Shown piece by piece: positions 733-22,494 of a DNA stretch of 64,000 nucleotides. The stretch comes from Flammeovirga sp. SJP92. GTDB taxonomy: Bacteria > Bacteroidota > Bacteroidia > Cytophagales > Flammeovirgaceae. The stretch covers positions 1 to 64,000 of the forward strand of contig NZ_LQAQ01000120.1 of the NCBI RefSeq assembly GCF_001583495.1, given 5' to 3'. The notes beneath the pieces are model-generated. The model was not told the DNA's origin and made no database searches. It worked only from the letters and a program-made list of their open reading frames with translations. A program made the position numbers and the translations under genes. The first letter of the stretch is position 1; each line of letters begins with the position of its first letter.

Positions 733-3042
733 TTAATTTTTCTTCAAAATACTTACCCTCACAGATTTACTAATAGGCGTATTACTTATTGTCGCAAACT
801 GATCATTGGGAATCAAAACATTTGCCTCAGGAAAGTAAGAGGCAAGGTTTCCTTCAGGAATATCATAAGGTACTATGATGAAGTTTTCTGCTTTACGTTC
901 CACACCATTGTATTCACTTTTTAAGTCTACAATTTCATTGGCTTTTAAACCTAAATTGCTGATATCTTTAAGATTGATAAGCACAACCCTTCTTTCATTA
1001 AAAATACCTCTATAGCGGTCATCCAGACCGTAGATAGTGGTATTGTACTGATCATGAGAGCGAATAGTCATCATTAAGAACTCATTTTCATTTAGTTCAT
1101 GTTGAGGAAGCTGATTGACGGTAAATTTGGCAACTCCACCGGGTAACTTCGAGAAATCACCTCTTCGTGTATGGTTTGGCAAATCGAAACCCGACTTTTT
1201 ACTTCTCTCCGTATAATCTTTAAAACCATCAAATACTTCTGCAATTTTACTTCTGGTGAAATCATAATCTGTTCCAAGGCGGTTCCATGGAATAGAAAAA
1301 TCTTCTTTAAAATAACTTTTGGCAATTCTGCTGACAATCTCCGGTTCACTCATCAAGTATTCAGAGGCAGGGTTGATTCTACCTACAGATCGGTGTACCC
1401 TTCCCATACTATTTTCAACCGTAACAAATCTTGATTTTCCATCTGATTCATCTTTTTCAGTTCGTCCTAAAGTTGGAAGGATCAATGAAGTTTTTCCCGT
1501 TATGAGGTGTGTTCTATTGAGTTTGGTACTGACTGAAACCGTCAAGTCACAGTTTTGAAGAGCTTTTGCGGTGTAATTGGTATCAGAGGCGGCAGAAAGG
1601 AAATTGCCTCCGAGTGCCATAAACACTTTTGCTTTTCCCTCGTACATGGCTTTAATACAATGTACCACATCGAGACCTTCCTCTGTTGGAGGTTTGAAGT
1701 TAAATGTCCTTTCAAATGAAGCATTGAGTTTGGCAGAAACGTGATGGGTAATTCCCACTGTTCGATCTCCTTGCACATTACTGTGTCCTCTCACAGGACA
1801 AGTACCTCCGCCTTTAATTCCTATACTGCCCTTAAGTAATAAAAGGTTGACACACTCGCGAATATTATCAACGCCATTTTTATGTTGCGTGAGTCCCATT
1901 GCCCAGCAAATTATCACTTTTTTCTTTTGTGCTAAAAGCTCTACAATCGGCTCTACCTCATCAGCAGATAAACCTGTTTGCTCCAATAAATCTTTTTTGG
2001 TAAACCCTTCAAGGTTTTTGAACAGGTCTTCCGAACCACTGGTGTTATTCTTAATGAAATTCCAATCAATAACATTCCCTTTCTTTCGATCAATCTGCAA
2101 TAACCTTTTCATGATGTATTTTAAAAGAGGAACATCTTGATTGATTTTGACTTGAAGATAATAGTCTGAAATTGCCGAACCACTGCCGACGACACCTTTT
2201 ACTTCTTGAGGGTTTTTAAAGCGAACAAGCGCCGCTTCTTTTAGTGGGTTAACGCTGACAACTTTGCCACCTTTCTGCCTGCATTTTTCTAATGCCGTCA
2301 ACATACGTGGGTGGTTGGTACCAGGATTTTGTCCTATTACCATCACTACATCTGCATGCTGGAAATCTTCTAATGTAACACTCCCTTTGCCAATACCGAG
2401 CGTTTGAAAAAGTCCTGCTCCACTTGACTCATGACACATATTGGAACAGTCAGGCATATTGTTGGTGCCTAATTTTCTGGCAAAAAGCCCGTACAAAAAG
2501 GCAGCCTCATTGCTGGATCTTCCTGACGTATAAAAGACCGCTTGATTAGGGTCTTTTAAAAGGTGAAGATGCTTACCGATGAGATCGAAAGCTTCATCCC
2601 AAGCAATGGGGGAATAATGTGTATCACCTTCTCTCAAAATCATGGGATGAGTAATCCTTCCACTTTTTCCAATTTTAAAATCAGTCCATTGACTCATTTC
2701 TTTGACAGAATATTGTTCAAAAAAAGCAGGAGTTACCCTTTTATTGGTTGCTTCTTCTGCAATGGCTTTCACACCATTTTCGCAGAATTCACCCAAGTTG
2801 GATCGATGCTCAGGGTCGGGCCACGCACAGCCTGGACAGTCAATGCCTTCTTTTTGATTTAATTTTGATAGCGTAGCAATAGATTTCGCTAAACCCATTT
2901 CTTTCATGGCATGTTCCAAAGCTACTTTTACGGCTGTCACACCTGCAGCATATTGGGGTGGTGCCGTCAACTTAAGGCCCGTAAAATTAACAGGACCAAT
3001 TGCTTCTTCAACGGTTTGGAGTTTGTTATTCTTGGTTTCCAT
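733..3042 (-). CDS. FdhF/YdeP-family molybdopterin oxidoreductase (putative formate dehydrogenase)
   Basis: A 769-residue Mo-bisPGD enzyme. An N-terminal Cys block (C69-P-G-C72, then FCENG) is typical of the YdeP/Fdh-alpha-like family. NMCHESSG places C203 where FdhF carries its Mo-ligating selenocysteine. Later motifs include GQNPGTNHPRM, GGGTCPVRGHSNVQGDR and a C-terminal molydopterin-binding domain. An upstream ATG at 3099 would add 19 residues but lies inside the hairpin 3074-3109, so I chose the ATG at 3042 (METKNNKLQ). Family members are annotated as formate dehydrogenases, but E. coli YdeP is tied to acid resistance, so formate is an inference. It rests on the neighbours: formaldehyde-dehydrogenase-like and S-formylglutathione-hydrolase-like genes directly upstream would produce formate. 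No electron-transfer subunit is adjacent. Confidence 0.8.
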   Translation of the reverse strand: METKNNKLQTVEEAIGPVNFTGLKLTAPPQYAAGVTAVKVALEHAMKEMGLAKSIATLSKLNQKEGIDCPGCAWPDPEHRSNLGEFCENGVKAIAEEATNKRVTPAFFEQYSVKEMSQWTDFKIGKSGRITHPMILREGDTHYSPIAWDEAFDLIGKHLHLLKDPNQAVFYTSGRSSNEAAFLYGLFARKLGTNNMPDCSNMCHESSGAGLFQTLGIGKGSVTLEDFQHADVVMVIGQNPGTNHPRMLTALEKCRQKGGKVVSVNPLKEAALVRFKNPQEVKGVVGSGSAISDYYLQVKINQDVPLLKYIMKRLLQIDRKKGNVIDWNFIKNNTSGSEDLFKNLEGFTKKDLLEQTGLSADEVEPIVELLAQKKKVIICWAMGLTQHKNGVDNIRECVNLLLLKGSIGIKGGGTCPVRGHSNVQGDRTVGITHHVSAKLNASFERTFNFKPPTEEGLDVVHCIKAMYEGKAKVFMALGGNFLSAASDTNYTAKALQNCDLTVSVSTKLNRTHLITGKTSLILPTLGRTEKDESDGKSRFVTVENSMGRVHRSVGRINPASEYLMSEPEIVSRIAKSYFKEDFSIPWNRLGTDYDFTRSKIAEVFDGFKDYTERSKKSGFDLPNHTRRGDFSKLPGGVAKFTVNQLPQHELNENEFLMMTIRSHDQYNTTIYGLDDRYRGIFNERRVVLINLKDISNLGLKANEIVDLKSEYNGVERKAENFIIVPYDIPEGNLASYFPEANVLIPNDQFATISNTPISKSVRVSILKKN

Positions 3043-3073
3043 TTGAGTGTCGTGAGTGTAATAGAGGGTGTTT

Positions 3074-3109
3074 GAAAAAGTCCATGAAGTAAATTTCATG
3101 GACTTTTTC
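3074..3109 (-). terminator. Bidirectional-looking terminator hairpin
   Basis: Perfect 15-bp arms (GAAAAAGTCCATGAA and its complement) around a 6-base loop, with A-run and T-run flanks on both sides. It lies about 40 bases past the esterase stop (3150) and before the Mo-oxidoreductase start (3042). It could terminate or attenuate the ADH-esterase transcript, leaving the oxidoreductase to readthrough or its own promoter. Confidence 0.7.
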
Positions 3110-3149
3110 GATAGTAATAATTCAAAATAATCAAAATCGTAAACAGTAG

Positions 3150-3965
3150 CTATTTATTGACTGTTTTTTCGATTTTATCAAAAAATAATAAAGTATCCTC
3201 TAAGTGTTCGTACCAGTATTCCCATTGATGTCCCCCTTCGAACTCTTCGTATACATGCTCAATATTATTTTCATTGAGTTGTTGATGCAATACTCTGTTG
3301 AAAGTGATTAATTCATCCGTATTGCCACAGTCGAAACGGAATGGAGGTAGGTTCTCTTTATGTTGAAGAACGGCAGTTAATACATCTTCATCTTCACGGT
3401 TTTCCTGAGCATAGTTGTCCAATTTTTCCTCCACAAATAATTCCATCTGTTGAATTTCTGTAATGGAACTATGTCCGCTCACACCGTCGTATTGATGACC
3501 ATATTTTGCTCCAATTCTCAAAGCACCAAAACCACCCATTGATAATCCTGAGATAAACAAAGGAGAAGCCTCACTGGTTTGAGGAATATTTTCTCTAACA
3601 GCTTGAGGTACATCTTCGGCAATCCACTTCTCAAAACTATAGTCATGATGGTCATTATAAGCAGAACCATCACCCCATAAACCATCTGACGGCATGGCTA
3701 AAATCACCGGTTTAATTTTTCCTTCCTTGATTAATCGGTTAGCAGTGACGTGAGCACCGCCCATCATGCACCAGATCCATGCACTTCCGTATACACCATG
3801 AAGCAATGTGACAATCGGCAGATCTTTATGATCACCTTCAGGCACAAAAACACATATATCACCTCTTCCTTTGAGGTTGTTCGTTTTTACTGTGATAAAA
3901 CGAAGTCCATCCATTTCAAATTTTGGATTGGATAATTCTGTTGTTCTAAATTTTGACTTACTCAT
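3150..3965 (-). CDS. Esterase D / S-formylglutathione hydrolase-like alpha/beta hydrolase
   Basis: A 271-residue alpha/beta hydrolase of the esterase D (tributyrin esterase/FGH) type. LLHGVYGS (54-61) forms the oxyanion region, GLSMGGFGALR has nucleophile S142, D212 or D217 in FDCGNTDE is the likely acid and H246 in GGHQWEYW the base. There is no signal peptide, so it is cytoplasmic. Its start overlaps the ADH stop by 8 bases (3958-3965), which predicts translational coupling. With a class III ADH upstream, the natural reading is hydrolysis of S-formyl-thiol to formate plus thiol. The GxSxxG surroundings are nearer to generic esterases than to classical FGH, so a sugar-ester esterase role is an alternative. 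Confidence 0.8.
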   Translation of the reverse strand: MSKSKFRTTELSNPKFEMDGLRFITVKTNNLKGRGDICVFVPEGDHKDLPIVTLLHGVYGSAWIWCMMGGAHVTANRLIKEGKIKPVILAMPSDGLWGDGSAYNDHHDYSFEKWIAEDVPQAVRENIPQTSEASPLFISGLSMGGFGALRIGAKYGHQYDGVSGHSSITEIQQMELFVEEKLDNYAQENREDEDVLTAVLQHKENLPPFRFDCGNTDELITFNRVLHQQLNENNIEHVYEEFEGGHQWEYWYEHLEDTLLFFDKIEKTVNK

Positions 3966-5079
3966 GATCGAAAATTAATACCCCTTTAGCGTTTCTACCC
4001 TTCAACATATCATCAAATGCTTGTTCAAGTTTTTCTAGAGGGTAGGTTCTAGTAACCATTTCGTCAAGCAATAAATCACCTTTCTTATAAAGGTTTACAA
4101 GTTTCGGAAAGTCTACTTCAGGACGGCATTTTCCGTACAATGGATTGATGTAGATTTTGTCCCATTCAAAAAGGCTCATGTCGATCAGAACTTCTTGCTC
4201 AATACCACTCACTTGAACAGCAGTACCTGCATTTCTGACCATAGCCAAAGGTGCGGCACCCAAGGCCGGAATAGCCGTACATTCAAAAGCATAATCGGCA
4301 CCTCTTCCACCTGTCATTTCCTTTACTTTTTGAGCGGCTTTCAGCAATCCTTTATCGTCTTTATCAGCAAGGATAGTATGAGTAGCACCAAATTGAAGGG
4401 CCATTTGAAGCCTTTCCATGTTGATATCAATAGCAATAATCTTTTCAGCACCAGAGACTTTTGCACCTTGAATAGCATTTAGTCCTACACCTCCAGTTCC
4501 TAAAACCACGGCAGTATCACCAGCAGAAATATCAGTAGCATTCACCACAGATCCGTAACCTGTCATCACACCACAGCTGATCAAACTTGCTGAAGCCATT
4601 GGAATATCCTTATCCATTTTGACGCAAGCCGACTCTTTTACTAATGTATATTCTGAAAAAGTACCTAAGTTGAAAGATCTTTCAATAGGTTTTCCGTTCC
4701 AAAGGTTGCCTTCTAAATGAGAGTGGCCTGGAGTATGACCATTTCCGCCAGCAACCACCGGAGAGTTGGTATCACAAATATGTTGGTTGCCATCTTGACA
4801 TTGATCGCATTTCATACATGGAGTAGCCCAGTTTAATATGACTGAATCTCCATTTTTTAGTTTAGTTACATTTGGGCCTGTTTCCACTACAATTCCAGCC
4901 CCTTCATGACCTAATATAATGTCTTTGCCCCAGTGTAGTGAATCATGATCCGTATGGCACAGTGACGCCGCCATGACTTTGATGATTACTTCATCGTCTA
5001 TTGGCTCACCTATTTCTATATTTTCGATCGTAAACGTTCCTTGTCCATGACCAATAGCGGCCTTGCATTGTATTCCCAT
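3958..5079 (-). CDS. Class III-type zinc alcohol dehydrogenase (S-(hydroxymethyl)thiol dehydrogenase-like)
   Basis: A 373-residue medium-chain dehydrogenase. Catalytic zinc ligands are C41 (SLCHTD), H58 (LGHEGAG) and C169 (ISCGVMTGYG). Structural zinc is held by C88, C91, C94 and C102. The Rossmann motif is GTGGVG (194-199), with D218 suggesting NAD preference. The overall pattern is that of glutathione- or mycothiol-dependent formaldehyde dehydrogenases, which oxidise the hydroxymethyl-thiol adduct of formaldehyde. It is the first gene of a minus-strand set with the esterase (8-base overlap). Many Bacteroidota do not make glutathione, so the thiol partner is unknown; activity on another alcohol or aldehyde from algal sugars is possible. 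TTTTACACT abuts the start codon, and a divergent AraC gene begins at 5246. Confidence 0.87.
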   Translation of the reverse strand: MGIQCKAAIGHGQGTFTIENIEIGEPIDDEVIIKVMAASLCHTDHDSLHWGKDIILGHEGAGIVVETGPNVTKLKNGDSVILNWATPCMKCDQCQDGNQHICDTNSPVVAGGNGHTPGHSHLEGNLWNGKPIERSFNLGTFSEYTLVKESACVKMDKDIPMASASLISCGVMTGYGSVVNATDISAGDTAVVLGTGGVGLNAIQGAKVSGAEKIIAIDINMERLQMALQFGATHTILADKDDKGLLKAAQKVKEMTGGRGADYAFECTAIPALGAAPLAMVRNAGTAVQVSGIEQEVLIDMSLFEWDKIYINPLYGKCRPEVDFPKLVNLYKKGDLLLDEMVTRTYPLEKLEQAFDDMLKGRNAKGVLIFDHE

Positions 5080-5088
5080 AGTGTAAAA
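5080..5088 (-). promoter_or_regulatory. TTTTACACT motif directly before the ADH start
   Basis: On the minus strand TTTTTTACACT runs straight into the ATG of the dehydrogenase. The same nine bases occur upstream of the P450, the PUL sulfatase, the PUL AraC gene and between the GH16-like and HTCS genes. Function is inferred only. Confidence 0.35.
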
Positions 5089-5160
5089 AATGTTTGAGGA
5101 GTTGAGATAACTTGTGTTGTTGATAGCAAATGTCTTCTGTTTTCTTACGAAAGAGTTTCT

Positions 5161-5189
5161 CTATTTTGATTGAAAAGTTATCTATTTTG
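5161..5189. promoter_or_regulatory. Two direct half-sites CTATTTTG, 21 bp apart, in the ADH/AraC divergent region
   Basis: CTATTTTG at 5161-5168 recurs at 5182-5189. A 21-bp step is two helical turns, the usual spacing of direct-repeat half-sites bound by the two HTH motifs of AraC-family regulators. The sites lie 57 bases before the AraC start (5246) and about 80 from the ADH start, a suitable place for control of one or both genes. Confidence 0.45.
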
Positions 5190-5245
5190 TATTTTATATG
5201 ACTATTGTGTTATTTTAGTGATTAAAATACATCATTTTTTAATCT

Positions 5246-6088
5246 ATGAAGGCTTTTTTTGAGAAGGTCGTTACACAAGACTCTTCTAATATTCGTGCTT
5301 TTAAATACTCACAGAAAGAGTTTAATACACCTTGGCATGTCCATCCAGAATATGAACTGACTTTTATTCTGAATAGTGTTGGAAACCGTTATGTAGGGAA
5401 TAATATATCTGGCTATCAACCAGGGGAATTGGTTTTGCTGGGGCCGAATTTACCGCACTGTTGGAAAAACGACATTGATGAACGTGAAAATGCAGAATCT
5501 TTAGTGATCCAATGGCCTAAAGAAGTGGTGAATAATATTTTAGAATTTGATGAAATCAAGTCATTGTTTAAAAACATCAACAGAGGCATTCTGTTCCATT
5601 ACCCGTCGTCATTTGATATTAAAGCAAAAATGCAAGTAGTGATAGAGAGTAATGGGTTGGAAAGGTATTTGAATTTAATTGCTCTTTTAAAAGAAATGAA
5701 TCGCCTTGAAAAGAGAGAATACTTGGCAGGGGCGTCCTATGCTTATGAAGAGTCTACGGCTTTGAATGATAGAATAGAGAAGGTGCAGAATTTTATAGCT
5801 GAAAATTATGATCGGAAAATTAGATTATCTGAAATTGCCCAAGAACTCAATATGACAGAACAGTCTTTCTCACGGTTTTTTAGCAAAGCAATGCAACGTC
5901 CTTTCTTTGTTTTTCTCAATGAATATAGGATTAATAGAGTCAGCCGTCTTTTGCTGGAAACTGATATGCAAGTGGCAGAGATAGGGTATAGATGCGGTTA
6001 CGAAAGTCTCCCGTTTTTTTATCAACAGTTTAAAAAGTTCAAGAATTACAGTCCTTTAGAATTTAGAAAATTGTATAAGAAAATTTAA
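5246..6088 (+). CDS. AraC-family transcriptional regulator with cupin sensor domain
   Basis: A 280-residue regulator. The N-terminal half is a cupin fold (HVHPEYELTFILN, then GELVLLGPNLPHCWKND). The C-terminal 100 residues carry two HTH motifs (IRLSEIAQELNMTEQSFSRFFSKAM and VAEIGYRCGYESLPFFYQQFKKF) and end in the family signature NYSPLEFRK. It is divergent from the ADH gene and probably controls it; a sugar or its derivative is the likely ligand. It is paralogous to the AraC protein at 43974, with similar cupin blocks (HYHQQYELIFIQ, PYLPHLWRND). A decayed copy of its last 24 codons lies 470 bases downstream. Confidence 0.93.
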   Translation: MKAFFEKVVTQDSSNIRAFKYSQKEFNTPWHVHPEYELTFILNSVGNRYVGNNISGYQPGELVLLGPNLPHCWKNDIDERENAESLVIQWPKEVVNNILEFDEIKSLFKNINRGILFHYPSSFDIKAKMQVVIESNGLERYLNLIALLKEMNRLEKREYLAGASYAYEESTALNDRIEKVQNFIAENYDRKIRLSEIAQELNMTEQSFSRFFSKAMQRPFFVFLNEYRINRVSRLLLETDMQVAEIGYRCGYESLPFFYQQFKKFKNYSPLEFRKLYKKI

Positions 6089-6125
6089 GTGTTAGAGATT
6101 GAAACCTTGTAGGTCATTAGAAGCC

Positions 6126-6170
6126 TCCTGATTTCTAAAAACCACAAATATCCATGAATAGTAGTTTACA
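6126..6170 (+). repeat. Dispersed short repeat, copy 1
   Basis: TCCTGATTTCTAAAAAC followed by (C/T)ACAAA and, after a variable stretch, TAGTTTA(C/T)AATG. The same order of blocks occurs at 12075-12115, at the 3' end of the caspase gene. This copy starts 38 bases after the AraC stop. Confidence 0.6.
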
Positions 6171-6180
6171 ATGTATTTAT

Positions 6181-6281
6181 GTACTGCTTATACACTATAC
6201 ACCGTACAGACCGTACGGTGTATAGTGTATAAGCAGTACGGTGAATAGCGTACAGTGTGTACGGTGGGTAGTGTATGGATA
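6181..6281. repeat. 27-bp perfect inverted repeat joined to three 23-bp tandem units
   Basis: 6181-6207 and 6213-6239 are perfect inverted copies (27 bp) around the loop AGACC. The right arm also begins a tandem series: units start at 6213, 6236 and 6259, each beginning GTACGGTG and continuing with variants of TATAGTGTA. The inverted left arm is thus a fourth, flipped copy of the unit. No coding sequence overlaps it. Confidence 0.9.
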
Positions 6282-6323
6282 GGTTGAGCTGAATAAAAGT
6301 GGATTTGCAATAAGAGCTATTCC

Positions 6324-6336
6324 AAACATGCTCTTA
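6324..6336 (+). repeat. AAACATGCTCTTA short dispersed repeat
   Basis: This 13-mer occurs at 6324-6336, 12095-12107 and 58426-58438, always outside genes or at a gene 3' end. Here a degenerate second unit (AAACACGCTCTAA) follows directly. Confidence 0.55.
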
Positions 6337-6558
6337 TTTCAAACACGCTCTAATATATCTCTTAGGTTTTAAATATTTAAAAAATTAATAAGTGAGTTTT
6401 TAGAGCGATATATAATTGAAATTTAAAGTTGCTTATTTCATTTCAATCAGAGTATTACAAAAATATTTTATTTATTGACAGTTTTCTAATCCAAGCATGT
6501 TAAAATATATTATTACATTATTGAAAACGAGGAACTAAAGACGGTAATGAGAGTCTAT

Positions 6559-6633
6559 CATTTTTATCTGCAATTTAAAAAGTACAACAATTACAGCCCT
6601 TTAGAATTTAGGAAATTATATAAGAAAATTTAG
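6559..6633 (+). pseudogene. Decayed duplicate of the AraC gene 3' end
   Basis: Reads HFYLQFKKYNNYSPLEFRKL then YKKI and a stop, against FFYQQFKKFKNYSPLEFRKL, YKKI and a stop at the true end of the AraC gene (6014-6088). Similarity also holds at the nucleotide level and includes the stop position. The frame upstream of 6559 does not resemble the rest of the protein, so only the terminal segment was duplicated or survives. Confidence 0.8.
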
Positions 6634-6763
6634 TCTTGTAACACCGATAATTGTCTATCTTTATCTCATTCAATAAAACTCAATTTTTTGAGGAGTAATT
6701 ACTAACAGAAAGCGAATTTGTGTTTTAATCTAAATAAATTTGGACAATTAACTTAAACAAACA

Positions 6764-8380
6764 ATGAGACATTTTTTTGTATTACTACCGTTATTATTCT
6801 GGCTTCATACCGAAGCATTTTCCAAAAAACTACCCACCAAAGTCAGCGGATATATATTCGAAGACATCAATCAAAATGGCGTACTAGACAAAGGCGAACC
6901 GCTCGTAAAAGGAGTGGCGGTATCGAATGGTTTAGAAGTAGTGTTGACCAACGAGAAAGGTTTTTATGAATTACCTCTTCAACCGAAACAAACCATTTTT
7001 GTAAGTAAACCAAGCGGTTATGAATTAAGAAAGAACAGCTATCATACCATGGCCGATTTTTTACATTTCTACCCTGAACCCACTGCCGAATCGTATGCAC
7101 CAACCGTAGCACAAAATGCGGAAGTACCTGAGCAATTGAATTTCCCTTTAAGAAAAATTGAAGAATCTAAGGCTTTTACAATGGCAATGCTTGGTGATAT
7201 TCAGGCACGCTATCAGCATCAAGTCAATTATGCTCATGAAGTAGCGGAGGAATTATATCAATATCCTAATTTGAAAGGTGCAGTAATGTTAGGGGATATG
7301 GGTGATGATAATGCCATGATTTTTCCAGCTCTAAATGAGCTTTTTAAACAATTTACAACCACTGTTTATCCGGTGGCAGGGAACCATGATAGAAACTATG
7401 ATATTGAAGATTTGACAGAAGACTTTAGTGGCTTCAAAAAATACTATGGACCAGATCAGTATTCTTTTAATATTGGTGATGTGCACTTTATCGCCATCAA
7501 TAATGTAACGACAATCAAAGGCATTCAATACAAAGATTTTATTCCTAAAAACAGAATGGAATGGATCAAAAATGATTTAGCTACAGTGCCAAAAGAAAAA
7601 CTAATCGTCTTTTTACAGCATATTCCATTAGGACATATGATGCAGGAAAGTAGAGATGAACTGATGGAAGTGATTAAAGATTTCCCTCATGTAAAATCGT
7701 TTTCAGGGCATCTTCATTCTATGACTCATTTGTATTTACCTTATGGCGATAATAAAGTCCTACACGATGTAGTAACAGGTGCAGTCTGTGGATTATGGTG
7801 GGGTGGAGAGTTAGATCTTGATGGTATTCCGAATGGCGTAATGGGATGTGGCTCTCCAAAAGGGTATTACTTAGCTCATTTTAACGGTAATAAAGTCAAT
7901 ATGGAGTATAAAGCATCGGGTAAACCAAAAGAAAAGCAAATGAAGATTTGGGTGTATCAACCATTAAATGCGAAGAAAGATCCAACGATACATATTCCAG
8001 AGGGATTGACAGAAAACAACTTCTTAGCGAATATTTGGGCAGGTTCGATTCATACAGAAGCTTATGCTCAGATAGACGGTGGGGAATGGCAAAAATTGGA
8101 GCGAAGAGATAAAATAGTAGATCCAACAGCGAGAAGAATTTATTTAAGAGATTCATTAAAAATATCCAATCAAAAATCTCATCTTGGACCTGGCTACCCG
8201 AAGAATATACCTTCACATATTTGGGTAGGGGAATTTCCTGAAGATTTTAAAGATGGCAGTCATATTATCAAAGTGAAAGCGGTTGATCCTTCAGGAATGG
8301 AATTTAAAGGTCATCGTATTTTTACGAAAGGTAATTTTGATGGTGATTATGAAGAAGTGGATTGGTATAATATCCATTAA
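6764..8380 (+). CDS. Secreted calcineurin-like phosphoesterase (MetallophosN-Metallophos-MetallophosC)
   Basis: 538 residues. A signal peptide (MRHFFVLLPLLFWLHTEAFS) precedes an N-terminal beta domain with DINQNGVLDKGE (34-45), resembling a calcium loop or SdrD-B repeat. The metallophosphoesterase core follows: LGDIQ (D145), GDMGDD (about 178-183), GNHD (206-209), LQHIP (about 284-288) and GHLHS (about 315-319), which covers the dinuclear metal ligands. The last 160 residues form a beta-rich C-terminal domain. This three-part architecture is common in Bacteroidota; physiological substrates are mostly unknown, and a phosphodiester or phosphomonoester outside the cytoplasm is likely. It stands alone before a palindrome and is not obviously in an operon. 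Confidence 0.88.
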   Translation: MRHFFVLLPLLFWLHTEAFSKKLPTKVSGYIFEDINQNGVLDKGEPLVKGVAVSNGLEVVLTNEKGFYELPLQPKQTIFVSKPSGYELRKNSYHTMADFLHFYPEPTAESYAPTVAQNAEVPEQLNFPLRKIEESKAFTMAMLGDIQARYQHQVNYAHEVAEELYQYPNLKGAVMLGDMGDDNAMIFPALNELFKQFTTTVYPVAGNHDRNYDIEDLTEDFSGFKKYYGPDQYSFNIGDVHFIAINNVTTIKGIQYKDFIPKNRMEWIKNDLATVPKEKLIVFLQHIPLGHMMQESRDELMEVIKDFPHVKSFSGHLHSMTHLYLPYGDNKVLHDVVTGAVCGLWWGGELDLDGIPNGVMGCGSPKGYYLAHFNGNKVNMEYKASGKPKEKQMKIWVYQPLNAKKDPTIHIPEGLTENNFLANIWAGSIHTEAYAQIDGGEWQKLERRDKIVDPTARRIYLRDSLKISNQKSHLGPGYPKNIPSHIWVGEFPEDFKDGSHIIKVKAVDPSGMEFKGHRIFTKGNFDGDYEEVDWYNIH

Positions 8381-8387
8381 TCTTTAT

Positions 8388-8419
8388 CCTCAGCCCACGA
8401 TTTAAATCGTGGACTGAGG
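8388..8419. repeat. 32-bp palindrome between convergent genes (terminator/REP-like)
   Basis: Sixteen-base arms meet at ATTTAAAT with one mismatch (CCTCAGcCCACGAT against ATCGTGGaCTGAGG). It sits between the stop codons of two convergent genes (8380 and 8473), so it may serve as a two-way terminator. In minus-strand RNA the mismatch becomes a U-G pair. The CCCACGA core is shared with 10284-10325. Confidence 0.7.
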
Positions 8420-8472
8420 ATGTGTTCGTAATGCTTTGTGGCTCACGGGAACCATAAAAACACCAGTTCTTA

Positions 8473-8763
8473 TTATTCAAAATAAAGCTTGAATGCGAGT
8501 TCATATAAAATATAAGCTCCAACAACACTAGCTATCAAATTAAACATCAATAACCCTAAACTTTCAGAATTCTTACCTCGAAACCCATGATAAGCAGAAA
8601 TAAGGCATAGATTGAAAGTCAAAAAAATGGGTAATGCAAGTAAACCATAACCCCAAGGTCCACCTCTTGCAATGATAATTTTCAGTGTCATTGGAATATA
8701 ATAAAGATTTAGAAGTAAGATTAAAACCGATGTCCCTTTGTTTGCTTTAGATATGAAGTTCAT
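8473..8763 (-). CDS. Small membrane protein, unknown function
   Basis: 96 residues from the ATG at 8763 (MNFISKANKG); an upstream in-frame ATG at 8814 would add 17 residues with no extra feature. Three hydrophobic segments are visible: VLILLLNLYYIPMTLKIII, GLLALPIFLTFNLCLISA and SLGLLMFNLIASVVGAYILY. No family is recognised. It is convergent with the phosphoesterase and divergent from the P450. It could be a genuine small inner-membrane protein; no link to its neighbours can be shown. Confidence 0.55.
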   Translation of the reverse strand: MNFISKANKGTSVLILLLNLYYIPMTLKIIIARGGPWGYGLLALPIFLTFNLCLISAYHGFRGKNSESLGLLMFNLIASVVGAYILYELAFKLYFE

Positions 8764-9102
8764 GATGCTACTGTTTAGTTGAATGTAATAAAGCTGATAC
8801 ATCTCAAATTTCAAAAAGCAACCCCTTTATTTCTGTTTTTTACCTCTAAAAATCACTTTTTAATTTAAATAAGATAAAATACATAACTAATTAACGAAAA
8901 AACAGAAAGATTTGCCCTTTTCAACTCCATTACTTTGTGGTATCACTCAAGCATTAGAAATCATAACTCAATGAAAGTACCAAGACAAAAGTAAACGAAA
9001 ATTACCCATTTACTTCTGCCTTTGTACCTATAACTTCTAAATTAAAATAGGTAAGATAAGTGCTCTTATGCTTGATTTTTTTACACTCAAACAGCACAAG
9101 GT
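8764..9102. other. Divergent upstream region of the P450 operon
   Basis: About 340 bases without a gene. It contains the TTTTACACT motif at 9079-9087 and two T-rich stretches ending in CTTTGT (8933-8938 and 9020-9025). These loosely resemble the Bacteroidota -7 box (TAnnTTTG) but do not match it, so I do not call a promoter. Confidence 0.45.
9079..9087 (+). promoter_or_regulatory. TTTTACACT motif 15 bp before the P450 start
   Basis: A run of seven T leads into ACACT, with the ATG of the P450 at 9103. The nonamer is shared with the upstream regions of the ADH and several PUL genes. Confidence 0.35.
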
Positions 9103-10281
9103 ATGGAACACTTGAAAGAAGATAAGAAAACCAAACTAAGCGAATTCCCAGATCCATTTGAGCAAGCAAGAATCGAAAAAGGATACGGTGAAATTGATGA
9201 TCAGAATGATCCTGTCACAATGTTATTACGTCTGAAGGATGTTCGTAAGACAGCACATAACTGGAAAACGTTTATTTCTGGTGCTGAGCCAGGACGTATT
9301 GTTGTGCCTTCAGAAGTTCATATTAGAGATATCCGTCAGATTCCATTCGAGGTGGATCCACCAGAGCATAAATCATATAGAGATTTGGTAGAGCCTTGGT
9401 TCAAGAGACCTTTAGGTGAGGAATACCAAAAAGAATTAAAGACGATCATTGATGAGTTGATTGATGAAGCGTTGACGAAGGAACAGTTTGAGGTAGTAGA
9501 AGACTTTTCATTGAAGCTTCAATCACGAGCATTGACTACTTTATTGAATGTCCCTTACAAAGAATCTGAAATTTGGATTGATTGGGGCGTTCACGTTTTC
9601 CGTTCTGAAGAAACTTCCTTGGATGGCAGTAAGGCCAATATTCTTTTTGATTATCTGGATGAAAAAATTGAGGAAGCGAGCAAGAATCCAGGTGATGACC
9701 TTTACTCATTATTACTTTCTGCTGAAGTAGATGGTAAAAAGATGACAAAGGAAGAGGTGAAAGGTGTGATGATCTTAACGTTTGCAGGTGGTAGAGACAC
9801 AGTAATTAATGCAGTGACAAACTCAATTGCCTACTTTGCAGAGCATCCAAATTCTTTAAAAAGAATCGCTCAAGAACCAGAAATTACGGGTAGAGCAGTA
9901 GAAGAATTAGTGCGTTATTTCGCACCGTTAACTCACATGGGAAGAGTAGTGACGGAAGATACTCAAGTGTGTGAGCATGCCATCAAAAACGATTCTAGAG
10001 TTTCATTATGCTGGGCTTCTGCAAATAGAGATTCTGCCGCATTTGAAAATCCGAATGAAGTAGTTTTAGACCGTAAAGTAAACCCTCATGTCAGCTTTGG
10101 TTTCAGTACGCATAATTGTCTAGGAGCAACACATGCTCGTCAGATTTTGAAGATTTTATTGACTTCTTTAGCAGAAAAAGTGACTGCTATTGATATCAAA
10201 GAAGCGAAAGAAAATATAGAAGAGTGGGGAGAGTTTGACCGTAAAGTAGGATTCAAAAATATTACAGTAAGTTTTAATTAA
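9103..10281 (+). CDS. Cytochrome P450, probable 6-O-methyl-D-galactose demethylase
   Basis: A 392-residue soluble bacterial P450. The I-helix motif is AGGRDT (228-233), the K-helix ExxR is E268-L-V-R271, and the heme loop is FGFSTHNCLG with thiolate ligand C339. A ferredoxin and a ferredoxin reductase follow in the same direction, so this is a full class I three-component system. The same trio next to red-algal polysaccharide genes in Zobellia and Formosa was shown to oxidatively demethylate 6-O-methyl-D-galactose, giving galactose and formaldehyde (Reisky et al. 2018). Substrate here is inferred from this context and from the formaldehyde-type genes nearby. FGFS replaces the usual FGxG of the heme loop. 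Confidence 0.88.
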   Translation: MEHLKEDKKTKLSEFPDPFEQARIEKGYGEIDDQNDPVTMLLRLKDVRKTAHNWKTFISGAEPGRIVVPSEVHIRDIRQIPFEVDPPEHKSYRDLVEPWFKRPLGEEYQKELKTIIDELIDEALTKEQFEVVEDFSLKLQSRALTTLLNVPYKESEIWIDWGVHVFRSEETSLDGSKANILFDYLDEKIEEASKNPGDDLYSLLLSAEVDGKKMTKEEVKGVMILTFAGGRDTVINAVTNSIAYFAEHPNSLKRIAQEPEITGRAVEELVRYFAPLTHMGRVVTEDTQVCEHAIKNDSRVSLCWASANRDSAAFENPNEVVLDRKVNPHVSFGFSTHNCLGATHARQILKILLTSLAEKVTAIDIKEAKENIEEWGEFDRKVGFKNITVSFN

Positions 10282-10283
10282 TC

Positions 10284-10325
10284 CTCATTTCTGGCCCACG
10301 ACTTAAGTCGTGGGCCAGAAATGAG
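10284..10325. repeat. 42-bp perfect palindrome between P450 and ferredoxin genes
   Basis: Two 21-base arms, CTCATTTCTGGCCCACGACTT and its exact complement, with no spacer. It begins 3 bases after the P450 stop. As RNA it would form a strong stem, and the CCCACGACTTAAGTCGTGGG core matches the REP-like elements elsewhere. No T-run follows, so simple termination is unlikely; mRNA stabilisation or partial attenuation fits better. Confidence 0.9.
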
Positions 10326-10350
10326 ACATCCAATATAACACTAATAAAAA

Positions 10351-10659
10351 ATGGCTAAAATAACATTTATAACAAAGGATCAGGAGTCCATTGTAGTAGA
10401 AGGAACTTCGGGTTCAGTGATGGAGTTGGCAGTACAGGCCAACGTGAAAGGAATCGATGGAGATTGTGGTGGAGTGTGTTCGTGTGCAACGTGCCATGTA
10501 CAAGTAGATCCGGCTTCTGCAGATAAGTTAGGGGAGGCAAGTGAGATTGAGCAGGATATGCTGGAACTTGATGACGATGCAAATGAGTATAGCCGTTTGT
10601 GCTGTCAGTTGCAAGTGACAGAAGCATTGGATGGTGTGGTGCTTAATGTTGTGAAGTAA
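10351..10659 (+). CDS. [2Fe-2S] ferredoxin, putidaredoxin/adrenodoxin type
   Basis: 102 residues. Cluster ligands C39, C45, C48 and C85 fit the C-x5-C-x2-C-x36-C pattern (GDCGGVCSCATCHV and RLCCQLQV). Residues C43 and C84 are additional. The protein would carry electrons from the reductase encoded next to the P450. The stop codon TAA is followed at once by the ATG of the reductase, so the two are almost certainly cotranslated. Confidence 0.95.
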   Translation: MAKITFITKDQESIVVEGTSGSVMELAVQANVKGIDGDCGGVCSCATCHVQVDPASADKLGEASEIEQDMLELDDDANEYSRLCCQLQVTEALDGVVLNVVK

Positions 10660-11910
10660 ATGGGTAATAATAAATGCTGTGTAATCATTGGAGGAAGTCA
10701 CGGAGGTGTGAATGTGGCTTTCTCCTTGAGGAAAGAAGGATGGGAAGGAAGGATTGTGGTGATTGATAAAGATCCTAACCTTCCTTATCAAAGACCGCCA
10801 CTTTCTAAGACCTATCTTACGGTGAAAGATGAAAGCGGGTATATTCCACTTAAAGGCGAGCAAAGCTACCTTAACGAAGAGATTGAGTTGCTCTTAGAGC
10901 AGGAAGTGGTGGATGTGGATAAAAAAACGCAGTCTGTAGAACTTCAGAATGGTGATGTGATTGCTTATGATTTTCTAGTACTTGCTACAGGTGCGTCACC
11001 AATCATCCCTCCAATCAAAGGAATTGATACGGCTCAGCATCTTTTTGTGATGCGTAATATCCAAGATGTGAAAGGGATACAATCAGCATTGGAGAGTGGT
11101 GTTCAGAAAGTTGCAATTATTGGCGGTGGATATATTGGGTTAGAGACGGCTTCTTCTTTAAAAAAACTAGGGTTAGAAGTGACTGTTTTTGAAAGAGAAG
11201 AAAAGCTATTGCCTAAGGTGAATGCCGATGAACTATCAGCATTTTTATTGGATTTACACCAAAAAAATGGGGTACAGATTCAGTTGAAATCTAGTGTGTC
11301 AGCAATTACAACAGAAGGTGGTGTTCAAACCATTGTCACAGATAAAGGGACATCTTTTGAATGCGATATGATTATAATGGGAGTTGGCGTTTATGTCAAT
11401 CAAACCATCAGTGATCAATTAGCTTTGAAATACAATAATGGAATTGCAGTCAACGAATACTGTCAAACGTCAGAGGCTAACGTTTATGCAGTAGGTGACT
11501 GCAATACACATTATAATGCTATCTATGGTCAAGCAATCCGTTTGGAATCGGTACAAAATGCGGTTGATCAGGCAAAAATTGTTGCCAAATCCATTACAGG
11601 AAACCCAGAGAAGTACAACAGCTTACCTTGGTTCTGGTCAGATCAGTATGATGTAAAACTTCAGATCGCAGGTTTAACGATTGATGCTGACAATCATATT
11701 ATAAGAAAAGAAGAAGAGAATAAATGGTCGATTTGGTTTTTTAAAGGAGATCAAATACGCTCTGTCTACGCTATCAATAATGCAAAGGCTTATGTGGTAG
11801 GTATGAAAATGATCCAGCAAAATGCTAAGCTGGACAAACAGAAAGTGATAAATCCAGAGGAAAAATTGGCACCAAAAAATATTCTACTTCAAACAGAAAT
11901 TAATGCATAG
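10660..11910 (+). CDS. NAD(P)H:ferredoxin reductase, putidaredoxin reductase type
   Basis: 416 residues of the FAD/NAD-linked reductase fold. The FAD dinucleotide motif is IIGGSHGGVNVA (9-20, a variant of GxGxxG), the NAD(P) motif is IIGGGYIGLE (near 152-161), and the second FAD motif is VYAVGDC (about 276-282). E-R-E at the end of the second Rossmann strand (VTVFERE) favours NADH. The start abuts the ferredoxin stop. It completes the electron chain NADH to FAD to [2Fe-2S] to P450 heme. A terminator hairpin follows. Confidence 0.93.
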   Translation: MGNNKCCVIIGGSHGGVNVAFSLRKEGWEGRIVVIDKDPNLPYQRPPLSKTYLTVKDESGYIPLKGEQSYLNEEIELLLEQEVVDVDKKTQSVELQNGDVIAYDFLVLATGASPIIPPIKGIDTAQHLFVMRNIQDVKGIQSALESGVQKVAIIGGGYIGLETASSLKKLGLEVTVFEREEKLLPKVNADELSAFLLDLHQKNGVQIQLKSSVSAITTEGGVQTIVTDKGTSFECDMIIMGVGVYVNQTISDQLALKYNNGIAVNEYCQTSEANVYAVGDCNTHYNAIYGQAIRLESVQNAVDQAKIVAKSITGNPEKYNSLPWFWSDQYDVKLQIAGLTIDADNHIIRKEEENKWSIWFFKGDQIRSVYAINNAKAYVVGMKMIQQNAKLDKQKVINPEEKLAPKNILLQTEINA

Positions 11911-12074: not shown

Positions 12075-12115
12075 TCCTGATTTCTAAAAACTACAAACAT
12101 GCTCTTAGTTTATAA
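12075..12115 (+). repeat. Dispersed short repeat, copy 2
   Basis: Repeats the blocks seen at 6126-6170 (TCCTGATTTCTAAAAAC, ACAAA, TAGTTTA) and includes AAACATGCTCTTA at 12095-12107. It overlaps the stop codon region of the caspase gene. Confidence 0.55.
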
Positions 12116-15100
12116 TGGATTAAGCTCCACAAAAATAAAATCGTTGGCGAGGTTCTCTGAACGGGAAGTAGGATGCTGTTTTCCTTCCGTCAGTTGGTCT
12201 ACTTTTTGGAATAGATATTCTTTCAATTCCCACATATTGATGGTTTGATCTCTGTTGATGTCCATTTCTTTGGATGTGATTCCAGATAAAAGAGAATAGG
12301 TGAAAACACCATTTTGCCAATTTTTATTTTCATAAGCAAATTCCAAACCGCTCGCACTTGAGAAAATAAAAGTACCATTTTGACGTCTTGTCTCTTGGAA
12401 AACTGCTTTGATTTTTGACAGATTGTCTTTGGTGTTTTTCCTGTTCAAAACCTTTAAACCTCTCGTATTTTGAGGGTGAAGACTCGAATCAGCAAAAGTA
12501 TACTGTTCATCGAACAGTTCTCCAGAGTGACAAGCATCAACAAACATTACCTTTTGTCGAGCTGGGCAGTTATTCACAACCTCTTCTAATGCTTCAAAAG
12601 AAAGTCCCTGTGCAGAAGGTTTGCTGAAGTCAATCGGGTAGCTTGATAAATAGAGTTTTTGATTTTCTAAAACACCGTGTCCTGCATAGAAGACATAAAC
12701 ATGATCATCTACTTTTGCCGTTTTTAAGATGGCTTCAACTTCGTTCACTACACTTGTGGTCACTTCTTGATTAGTAAACGTCTTGCTAATAATTTCCACT
12801 CCATCTTTTTTTATCACTTTTTCCAAAGTAGATGTAAAATCTAGAGCATCTTTATCGGCATATTTTAGATTATATAATTGGTTTTGATGCTTAGAAACGC
12901 CTAAAGCAATAAAATAATACTTAGGGGAATAGTTGTTTTTATTGGCATAAACGGTTTGTGATTTTCTTAGTGATTCATTATTCAAAGCATCCGTTACTGA
13001 GACTTCAATCAAGTTTTTCCCTTGGGATAGCTCAATTTCAATACTTCCATTCCAGTCCTTTTGATTGTTCAATTTTTTTCCTTCTCTACCAAAAACAGGA
13101 ACATTGTTCACCCAGATATTCAAATGGTTTAAAGTAGATGCAGAGGAAGCACGTAAAGAAAGCTTCAATCTGTCATTATCTACATTGTCAGGAAGTGAAG
13201 AGAGTTCAATTTTTGGTAAAGATATTTTAAAATCTGTCTCCTCAATACCTAACCACTTCATTCTTATTTGATGTAGTTCCTTATAGTAGTCTACCGTTTT
13301 TTGAGTAACAAAAGGGATTTTTTCCAACACTTTATCAGGACGGTTGAGTTGAATGTCAAATTGTTCAGAACTGTAAGGAATCTGGTCCACCATCACCGAA
13401 AAACTCTTATTCATATTGGGTGAAGTAAAGTAATACTTGTCTGGTGAGAACATCATAAAACCACTTTCTTCTCCTATGTACAAACTCCCTTTTTTAGTTA
13501 AACCGTTCTCCAATGTATAAAAAGCAATTTCCCCTGTGGGATATCCGAAAATAAAGTTTTTCTCATCAATTTTTTCAATAATGGAAGGAGGGTCACCAAT
13601 GAAATAATTTTCAATAACAGGTAGTTTATTAAACCTATTAGGTGTTCCAGTCAAGTCAATTTTTTGAATATAGTCTCTTCTCATTTTGTATAAATAATGG
13701 TCTTCTATTATGATTGGAGAGATTCCAAAGATGCCAGGAACTTGGTATTTAAAGAATAGACCATTGTACTTTACTACAACTTTTTCGAGGATAGAATATT
13801 GATTCTCCTTCAAGAAGTTTATTTCCTTTCTGTTGATATCATATATATAAAAATGTTCTTCATTCTTTTTGGTGAAAAATAAAGTGCTATCTTTTAATTG
13901 AAAGTTATAGAGAGGGTGCTCAAACCATTTAATAAATTCAGATTTATTATTTTTTAAATCGTATTGCCATAAAAAAACTTTATAATCTTTTTTGTTAAAA
14001 GATCCCATATTATCGTATCCAACGGCATAAATAGTTTGTGAATCTTCATGATATAAGATTTCTGAGAACCTTCTATTTTTTCCAAGACGAAATATTTCTC
14101 TTGTATTTCCTGTTACTAAGTCTTTTCTTTTTAAAGTTTGTGCAGGCCTTTCAATAAGAAAAATTTCATTATTTGAAATAAAATAATCTTCAAATTTTTC
14201 TCTAATTGGATAATCAGGCAAGACTTTAGAAGTTAATGTATCAATTGAGAATGTTTCATTTTTAAAATCAATTCTTCTAGCGTATCCACCACCCCCTAGA
14301 GTGACATATAAAGCGTTATTATGCCATTTTAACTCATGAACCCATTTTGTGACTGAGGTTTCGCTGGATGGTTTAAAGTTGTTCTGAAGCAATTTTGCAT
14401 CTAAATTCCAAACAGAAATTTCATTTTCAATCAGGTTATTTCGCCCCACAAACAGTTTATTATCTACTTGATATAAAGTTGTGACCTCAGAAATATTTCC
14501 TTTATCACTTAAAAAATATCCCAAATCAGTCTTATACCAATACCCATGCCTTGCTTGATGATGATGAAGATTTGCAGTAATTTCATTCGTTTTTAAATCT
14601 ATTAGGTCAAGACTTTTAAACGGAACATCTGTTTCTCTATATCCAATTTTATATCTTGAGTTTTGAAATATAATTTTAGGATGATCTCCCCAGCAGCATC
14701 CATCAACATTACTTTTTTTGATTCCTTGCAGATAAAATGACTCAAAGAAATTTATTCCCTTAAGATGTGATTCTAGGCTTGAAATCATATTCACCTTTTC
14801 TTGAGGTGGCATGACATAAGGTGTGTAGGTACTAATGATATCATTATTTATTTCCAGCTTATCATTTTCGGATGCTTTAAAATATTGTGGTGCAACCTCA
14901 AACCAAGTAATAGGTTTTTCGTTAATATTTTCTAGGCCTACATATTTTCCGTAACTCACCTGTTGATTTGTAGATAAGTCCCAGATACTTATTCCTTCAT
15001 TTTCATAAAAGCTAGCTAAAAGATTTTTCTCTTTATGGTAATCAAATCCAATGATATTTTTTTCTCCCCATTTTTTGATCGAAATGTCAAGCTGACTTTC

Positions 15101-16792: not shown

Positions 16793-16875
16793 CGGTTTGT
16801 TTTAGTCAAGTTGATTAGTTGAAACGAAATTGATTCGAACAAATATAGAAATAAATAAAGAATATCCCTTTTCAT

Positions 16876-20408: not shown

Positions 20409-20580
20409 ACCCACTCGATGAAATAATTTGAAAAAGCATAAGAGTTATTATATTAAAAACTGAATTATCGTCAACTTTCAAACGGCGTTTTTACAATTTA
20501 CCATTTATCTTAGAGAAACCTATTGATGGTAATTATTTTGAATATCTAACTCAAACGTTATAAGTGAAATAACCTCTTGG

Positions 20581-22368: not shown

Positions 22369-22494
22369 GGCTACTAAAGCATGTTTTTGTTGTAGGTGAT
22401 GGCAATGTTTACAGTTGTTAAGATACAATTATTCTGTTTTAATTCTATTTTTTCATTGAAAAATCTTACAAATTGTAACGTTCTTTGGACTGAT

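Follow-up and report, generated by a model that had tools for sequence, protein, structure and literature searches.

A possible Flammeovirga variant of the 6-O-methyl-galactose demethylation cluster, with a dehydrogenase–esterase pair that recurs beside unrelated oxygenases

The closest described relative of the locus considered here is the 6-O-methyl-D-galactose cluster of Zobellia galactanivorans and Formosa agariphila (Reisky 2018, as cited in PMC10033563), in which genes for a cytochrome P450, its redox partners, a zinc alcohol dehydrogenase (ADH) and an esterase lie side by side. The P450 reaction gives equimolar formaldehyde (as cited in PMC10033563), and the P450, redox partners, esterase and ADH occur together in several marine genera (Brott 2023; PMC10033563); the neighbourhood as such is already published. 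What the main text of Brott 2023 leaves unexplained is the need for a dehydrogenase without activity on formaldehyde during growth on 6-O-methyl-galactose: the ADH knockout has a strong growth defect on the methyl sugar and none on galactose (PMC10033563). Here we analyse a stretch of 64,000 nucleotides (the window) from Flammeovirga sp. SJP92 (contig NZ_LQAQ01000120.1, positions 1 to 64,000), which carries orthologs of the P450 and the ADH, an esterase and, in addition, a molybdenum enzyme of the FdhF/YdeP family (YdeP below). An earlier reading of the window, the original prediction, had seen in these genes a complete classical route from methylated algal sugar to CO2. Our comparison suggests something different for its middle part, namely that the ADH–esterase pair is a movable unit accompanying several unrelated oxygenases.

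In the window genome (G000; 8.49 Mb) the genes form two runs, P450–ferredoxin–reductase on the + strand (9103-11910) and ADH–esterase–YdeP on the − strand (5079-733). The P450 product matches solved chain 6g5o with 636.5 bits over residues 11-392 (phmmer), while the next chain scores 177.5 bits, and it is an ortholog of 6g5o/6g5q. We take 6g5o to be the carbohydrate-demethylating P450 of Zobellia; its database record is titled merely “Cytochrome P450.” Dedicated ferredoxin and ferredoxin reductase genes adjoin the P450 (10351-11910), a ferredoxin homolog being found next to it in nine of the ten named loci (the exception is L012), and the P450 is 95-96% identical in three named Flammeovirga loci. 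Orthology thus supports the view, already put forward in the original prediction, that the trio at 9103-11910 is a 6-O-methyl-galactose demethylase. A complete P450–ferredoxin–reductase–ADH–esterase set is also present in a gammaproteobacterium, Agaribacter marinus (L011), which suggests transfer between phyla.

The window ADH, the only copy of its kind in G000 at E ≤ 1e-30, scores 651 bits against 8h2a (FoADH) and 600 bits against 8h2b (ZoADH), the next chains reaching about 203 bits or less. It retains the ligands of both zinc sites (C41, H58 and C169; C88, C91, C94 and C102) as well as F136 (positions from PMC10033563). Its position (3958-5079) and the 8-base overlap with the esterase gene are as originally predicted, and both genes are on the − strand; the names given to the two products are not upheld. 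The supposed class III dehydrogenase reaches 222.7 bits against TIGR02818 (glutathione-dependent formaldehyde dehydrogenase), under the cut-off of 543.95, and is also below the cut-off of TIGR03451, the mycothiol-dependent model. The supposed S-formylglutathione hydrolase-like esterase reaches 33.5 bits against TIGR02821, whose cut-off is 281.7. A profile built from 36 of the 57 esterase sequences, in which Ser142, His246, Asp212 and Asp217 are invariant, matches feruloyl esterases with 122 bits and Staphylococcus aureus FrmB (6vh9, 7l0a) with 84 bits, and chains named S-formylglutathione hydrolase with 38.5 bits or less. Feruloyl esterases are likewise the nearest folds to the AF2 model (pLDDT 95.4), followed by FrmB 7l0a and later by esterase D entries; with feruloyl esterases ranking first and FrmB next, the fold leaves the choice of substrate undecided. 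The N-terminus has no hydrophobic stretch, so the enzyme is probably cytosolic.

How constant is the association of these genes? The comparison covered 66 loci, 57 with the ADH; below, f1 denotes the family of the window genome (18 genomes) and f8 that of G105 (397 genomes), probably the Flavobacteriaceae. In f8 the ADH occurs in all 28 genomes with the P450 and in 12 of the 369 without it, a co-occurrence far beyond chance, as the original prediction had expected of relatives. A same-strand esterase accompanies the ADH in 57 of 57 loci (within 343 bases in 52 and at about 2.6 kb in five). P450 and ADH lie on one strand in 33 of the 41 joint loci, and the eight exceptions all belong to f1. Nine P450 loci have neither ADH nor esterase: seven with 9-10 kb on each side (L010, L033, L034, L035, L037, L038, L039); L012, whose stretch of 7 kb downstream and 0.4 kb upstream of the P450 holds no pair and no ferredoxin or reductase homolog; and L076, whose genome carries the pair elsewhere (L090).

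The pair also occurs without the P450. With P450 absence judged at thresholds of 1e-100 and 1e-30, 15 genomes (twelve of f8 and three of f1: G011, G012 and G016) have the ADH, at 60-71% identity, and no P450 match. In ten of them (G011, G012 and eight of f8; loci L054, L055, L078, L079, L081, L082, L085, L086, L088 and L089), a gene for a PhyH-family dioxygenase lies on the pair's strand, nine times within 200 bases. PhyH genes are found in three P450 loci as well (L025, L070, L073), so that the frequencies are 10/15 without and 3/41 with the P450 (p 2e-5). All 13 share the strand of the pair, 12 of them no more than 200 bases from the ADH or the esterase; the one in L086 is 5.6 kb away. HxD...H and an Arg, the iron- and 2-oxoglutarate-binding residues of PhyH proteins, are kept in 13 of 13, and the solved chain nearest to their profile is RESC14, followed by MysH. 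In G016 (L051, 5565-11062), an AraC regulator, a PaaE-like FAD/NAD/2Fe-2S reductase and an FA_desaturase–Rieske fusion stand directly upstream of ADH and esterase in one run, adjoined by glycoside hydrolase family 2 (GH2) and sulfatase genes; the fusion is possibly a third type of sugar demethylase. L085 holds genes of KDPG-aldolase, 2-keto-3-deoxygalactonokinase, altronate dehydratase and mannitol dehydrogenase types, and the ketodeoxygalactonate- and altronate-type genes suggest methylated uronic acids or galactose as possible substrates there.

On a tree of the 57 ADH rows, the PhyH label, scored against all other rows, requires seven changes, of which at least five are forced by the starred branches. 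A single PhyH clade is rejected by the AU test (p-AU 2e-47; 3e-51 without the long row L081), the group having been defined by gene context with a quick tree seen beforehand. On that quick tree P450 against PhyH alone needs six changes. L036, L080 and L081 are long branches of unsure placement. Not all label changes are swaps, since some lead to loci where either no oxygenase was recognised or both are present; even so, partner exchange around a constant ADH–esterase pair is well supported by these changes. An open-access literature search found no paper on the pair with PhyH or desaturase–Rieske oxygenases, and the main text of PMC10033563 does not contain the words dioxygenase, phytanoyl, desaturase, Rieske, Flammeovirga or molybd.

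From gene content, orthology, linkage and partner changes we infer the following catalytic steps for Flammeovirga. By orthology, the P450 with its ferredoxin and reductase would remove the methyl group as formaldehyde and leave galactose. The pair, judging from comparative genomics, would handle the released one-carbon (C1) unit as an adduct, in the form of a hemiformal or bound to a thiol yet to be characterised. The ADH would oxidise the adduct and the esterase would then free formate, which in Flammeovirga and near relatives might be oxidised by the appended YdeP, the least certain step. Neither kind of adduct is among the forms assayed in the main text of PMC10033563, whose authors leave room for an unidentified thiol. 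A bacillithiol-type thiol is likely, because 63 of the 64 genomes, G000 among them, carry the bacillithiol gene bshC. A C1 unit is also the most economical substrate for the pair, because three oxygenase types could share formaldehyde release via a hemiformal. Whether the locus is a Flammeovirga variant of the published demethylation cluster, with the pair as a portable C1-processing companion of O-demethylating oxygenases, seems to us evenly balanced. We lean against, without dismissing, the bolder form of this proposal, in which the pair serves C1 disposal in general and is a hallmark of sugar O-demethylase operons, the PhyH and desaturase–Rieske proteins that replace the P450 beside it are unrecognised sugar O-demethylases, and Flammeovirga carries the carbon to CO2 through the molybdenum enzyme.

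In favour of the first form count the P450 orthology, the co-occurrence of P450 and ADH in f8, the constant pairing of ADH and esterase, the recurrence of the pair with PhyH and desaturase–Rieske genes, the conserved PhyH residues, the label changes on the ADH tree, the rarity of HPS (the RuMP marker, below) among P450 genomes, the single ADH of this kind in G000 and the growth defect of the knockout on the methyl sugar but not on galactose (PMC10033563). Several observations weigh against it. FoADH and ZoADH, the characterised orthologs, are inactive on formaldehyde alone and show no dismutation, and they are equally inactive on formaldehyde mixed with glutathione, mycothiol, bacillithiol, cysteine, CoA, ergothioneine or aromatic thiols, that is, with every thiol tried (PMC10033563). 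They favour the reduction of aromatic aldehydes with NADH, and the authors conclude that these ADHs have no part in formaldehyde detoxification or in a reaction after demethylation (PMC10033563). Sugar demethylation by the PhyH or desaturase–Rieske proteins is itself a candidate role. Eight P450 loci have no pair nearby (seven with 9-10 kb on both sides, the rest of these genomes not being searched), and four loci with the pair (L080, L083, L084, L087) have no P450, PhyH or desaturase–Rieske gene within about 9 kb, where not every open reading frame was scanned. For the formate step, FdhD (TIGR00129) has no match in G000 or in any of nine Flammeovirga genomes. The earlier claim that ADH and esterase process the released C1 unit gains indirect support, from the recurrence of the pair with other oxygenases, against the opposite conclusion of the authors who assayed the orthologs (PMC10033563).

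The molybdenum enzyme is a clear FdhF/YdeP member, as predicted (TIGR01701, 851.9 bits; cut-off 582.15), although the start once given for it, 3042, is an internal ATG and the longest open reading frame begins at 3099. Against TIGR01591 (formate dehydrogenase) it scores 261.9 bits, under the cut-off of 666.25. Aligned to YjgC (8rqz), it carries DCSNMCHE, with the Cys-His at the Mo site, and PVRGHSNVQ, with the arginine of PxRGxxNVQ; both features are expected of a formate dehydrogenase. L002 and L003 are other molybdenum enzymes of G000. Formate dehydrogenases usually depend on the sulfurtransferase FdhD for their maturation. FdhD exceeds the TIGR00129 cut-off in 12 of 64 genomes, in nine of the 12 within 500 bases of YdeP. 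The idea that FdhD status divides YdeP active sites was rejected: both motifs are identical in 33 of 33 readable YdeP sequences (34 loci), with and without FdhD. The genomes of four P450 loci with no ADH–esterase nearby (L033, L034, L035, L037) all have FdhD beside YdeP.

In f1, seven of the nine Flammeovirga genomes have P450, ADH and YdeP, and none of the three was found in the remaining two (G005, G007). The order esterase–YdeP, on one strand and with gaps of 50-355 bases, is found in six Flammeovirga genomes and in one genome of another genus (G013), where P450, ferredoxin, reductase, ADH, esterase and YdeP all run in one direction; in G008, YdeP and esterase sit at the ends of different contigs. 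This linkage, together with the failure to find YdeP in the two Flammeovirga genomes without P450 and ADH, is a new observation. In the window the gap is 50 bases, with no terminator-like site found in it by a consensus scan. Elsewhere in f1, G017 has the ADH linked to the P450 and YdeP at another place, and five genomes have YdeP without the P450 (G001, G002, G011, G012, G016). Outside f1, YdeP is present in 30 of 34 P450 genomes, and in none of the 34 is it near the P450 (20 kb around the P450; 12 kb for L036); of 20 genomes without the P450, picked in the order of the list for comparison, 4 have YdeP. In f8 it occurs in 25 of 28 P450 genomes against 126 of 369 others (p 8e-9). We read this enrichment as one of lineage, because 11 P450-lacking congeners of P450 genomes keep YdeP (only keepers were listed) and the p-value is uncorrected for genome size. 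YdeP as a part of the pathway tracked across Bacteroidota was rejected on the same ground.

The chance that YdeP is an unrelated neighbour, a molybdenum oxidoreductase for another substrate placed beside the module by chance or shared regulation, falls only a little short of even, and this account is compatible with any of the other readings. It fits the separation of YdeP from the P450 in all 34 genomes outside f1, its retention by the congeners listed, and the failure to find FdhD in Flammeovirga (nor was it found in G013). It sits less well with the same-strand placement after the esterase in seven genomes of two genera, with the joint absence of YdeP, P450 and ADH from G005 and G007, and with Mo-site motifs equal to those of YdeP proteins adjoining FdhD. 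Relatives of the enzyme, Fdh4A of Methylobacterium and PP_4596 and PP_0256 of Pseudomonas putida, are genetically linked to formate oxidation (PMC10308882); PMC13094775 mentions ydeP abundance in chlorate-reducing milk samples, which we do not use as evidence. Because YdeP is unlinked elsewhere and FdhD was not found in Flammeovirga, formate oxidation by the Flammeovirga enzyme is unproven, and at best the case for it is evenly poised. As the last step of the route, the molybdenum enzyme is weakly supported: it adjoins the module only in Flammeovirga and G013, within f8 genera it does not track the P450, and FdhD was not found in the window genome.

It is rather unlikely, in our estimate, that the pair has nothing to do with C1 units and instead removes another aldehyde or ester (aromatic, furan or a polysaccharide by-product) or balances NADH, travelling with methyl-sugar genes through co-occurring substrates. 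It is favoured by the assays, in which aromatic aldehydes were preferentially reduced, and by what the authors themselves conclude (PMC10033563), as well as by the ADH–esterase loci without a recognised oxygenase and the sulfatases near the pair in six loci (L051, L078, L080, L083, L084, L086). However, three unrelated oxygenase types abut the pair on one strand, and the knockout phenotype is specific to the methyl sugar (PMC10033563).

A more direct shunt, in which the ADH converts the hemiformal of the sugar (R-O-CH2OH), the immediate oxygenase product, into a formyl ester before it can collapse and the esterase splits this ester into sugar and formate, leaving little free formaldehyde, we consider quite improbable. 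Zinc ADHs can oxidise hemiacetals to esters, and such a shunt would fit a CE1/feruloyl-type esterase and the recurrence of the pair with unrelated oxygenases. Hemiformals, on the other hand, are short-lived. The shunt would also account for the inactivity on free formaldehyde and thiols and for the need of the ADH on the methyl sugar only; against it stand the equimolar formaldehyde of the P450 reaction and a narrow, hydrophobic ADH pocket that may exclude the sugar, activity on sugars being called unlikely by the authors (PMC10033563).

The classical chain of the original prediction (ADH as glutathione-, mycothiol- or bacillithiol-dependent formaldehyde dehydrogenase, esterase as S-formylthiol hydrolase, YdeP as formate dehydrogenase) fits the gene order and fold types, the presence of bshC, the place of S. 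aureus FrmB among the better esterase matches by profile and fold, and the link of Fdh4A and PP_4596 to formate (PMC10308882), but it is very unlikely: with the cut-offs of TIGR02818, TIGR03451 and TIGR02821 unreached, no FdhD found in Flammeovirga, and two ADH orthologs inactive with all these thiols and possessing an active site said not to admit mycothiol or bacillithiol (PMC10033563), we reject it, for family assignment on the curated cut-offs and at its second step on the published assays of the orthologs. The lack of dehydrogenase activity on thiol-formaldehyde adducts, named by the original prediction as a refutation, has thus been reported for two orthologs (PMC10033563). Overall the observations of the original prediction are partly confirmed and its interpretation is partly supported.

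Another possible sink for formaldehyde is the ribulose monophosphate (RuMP) pathway, whose genes are upregulated with porphyran in Zobellia (PMC10033563, citing Brott 2022). Its marker HPS (TIGR03128) exceeds the cut-off in 7 of 64 genomes, including 5 of 43 P450 carriers, and in none of nine Flammeovirga genomes, the best match in G000 being 26.3 bits against a cut-off of 200; intermediate matches of 137-148 bits occur in twelve genomes, none of them in f1. With so few P450 genomes and no Flammeovirga over the cut-off, RuMP probably does not provide the general explanation.

The features of the locus are collected in Table 1. An AraC homolog is present in most of the P450 loci compared; homologs of the phosphoesterase between the two operons occur in L004-L006 only and were not found in L007-L013, and this gene is probably outside the pathway. 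The sulfatase foreseen at the left edge is there as an N-terminal fragment of about the first 60 codons (183-1, − strand).

Table 1. Genes of the demethylation locus and its immediate neighbours in the window
Feature	Position	Strand	Basis
Cytochrome P450	9103..10281	+	PF00067; phmmer 636.5 bits to 6g5o
2Fe-2S ferredoxin, predicted redox partner of P450	10351..10659	+	PF00111
NAD(P)H-ferredoxin reductase	10660..11910	+	PF07992 and PF14759
Zn alcohol dehydrogenase, FoADH/ZoADH ortholog	3958..5079	-	651 and 600 bits to 8h2a/8h2b
Alpha/beta-hydrolase esterase	3150..3965	-	PF00756
FdhF/YdeP-family molybdopterin oxidoreductase	733..3099	-	TIGR01701
AraC-family regulator, divergent from ADH operon	5246..6088	+	PF12833
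Calcineurin-like phosphoesterase between both operons	6764..8380	+	PF16370, PF16371, PF00149
Sulfatase N-terminal fragment, truncated at contig edge	1..183	-	direct reading of sequence

The right-hand part of the window holds a polysaccharide utilization locus (PUL; 39518-63529) with an HTCS regulator, a sulfatase, two GH16 carrageenase-like proteins, GH2, SusC, SusD and GH127. The PUL at 38-64 kb had been offered as the methylated galactan context. Its GH16 enzymes are closest to kappa-carrageenases (5ocr, 532 bits; 5ocq, 222 bits), and we rejected it as porphyran context; being of kappa-carrageenan type and starting 26 kb past the P450 operon, it gives no direct evidence for a methylated porphyran substrate. 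Between the P450 operon and the PUL lie, besides Rnf-type genes, those of a large caspase-domain (C14) protein, one protein that matches no Pfam family and three HATPase-like proteins (two under the Pfam cut-off), these last five all on the − strand at 12110-24279. Within the P450 operon, between the P450 and ferredoxin genes, a perfect palindrome, GCCCACGACTTAAGTCGTGGGC, at 10294-10315 forms part of a more extended inverted repeat; a copy that differs by 3 mismatches lies at 8393-8414. Two exact copies are present in the F. aprica stretch (L004 = L045). Shuffles give an expectation of 0, and the palindrome looks like a mobile palindromic element within the operon.

The presence of the pair next to two further, unrelated oxygenase types reduces the question posed by the ADH knockout to what the oxygenases share, and it names the PhyH and desaturase–Rieske proteins as candidates for new sugar demethylases. 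Should the pair be a general C1-disposal module and these proteins sugar O-demethylases, three oxygenase folds instead of one would take part in the oxidative demethylation of algal sugars. The RuMP pathway, put forward as the explanation in Zobellia, probably does not serve Flammeovirga. The recurrence of the pair also bears on the return of methylated algal carbon to CO2.

It remains to set the locus beside the known systems. With thiol-dependent formaldehyde oxidation (FrmA/FrmB and the mycothiol and bacillithiol versions) it shares an operon of a zinc dehydrogenase of the MDR type and an alpha/beta-hydrolase esterase; it differs in that both products are under the family cut-offs and that the known thiols elicit no activity from the ADH orthologs (PMC10033563). 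The molybdenum enzyme belongs to the same FdhF/YdeP family as Fdh4A, PP_4596 and PP_0256 (PMC10308882), whereas in Flammeovirga it has no FdhD that we could find and no known partner subunit, and its function is predicted. From the Zobellia/Formosa cluster, whose orthologous genes it shares, the Flammeovirga locus departs in three respects: the RuMP marker was not found in the genome, the ADH–esterase genes run divergently from the P450 operon, and an FdhF/YdeP gene is appended to them.

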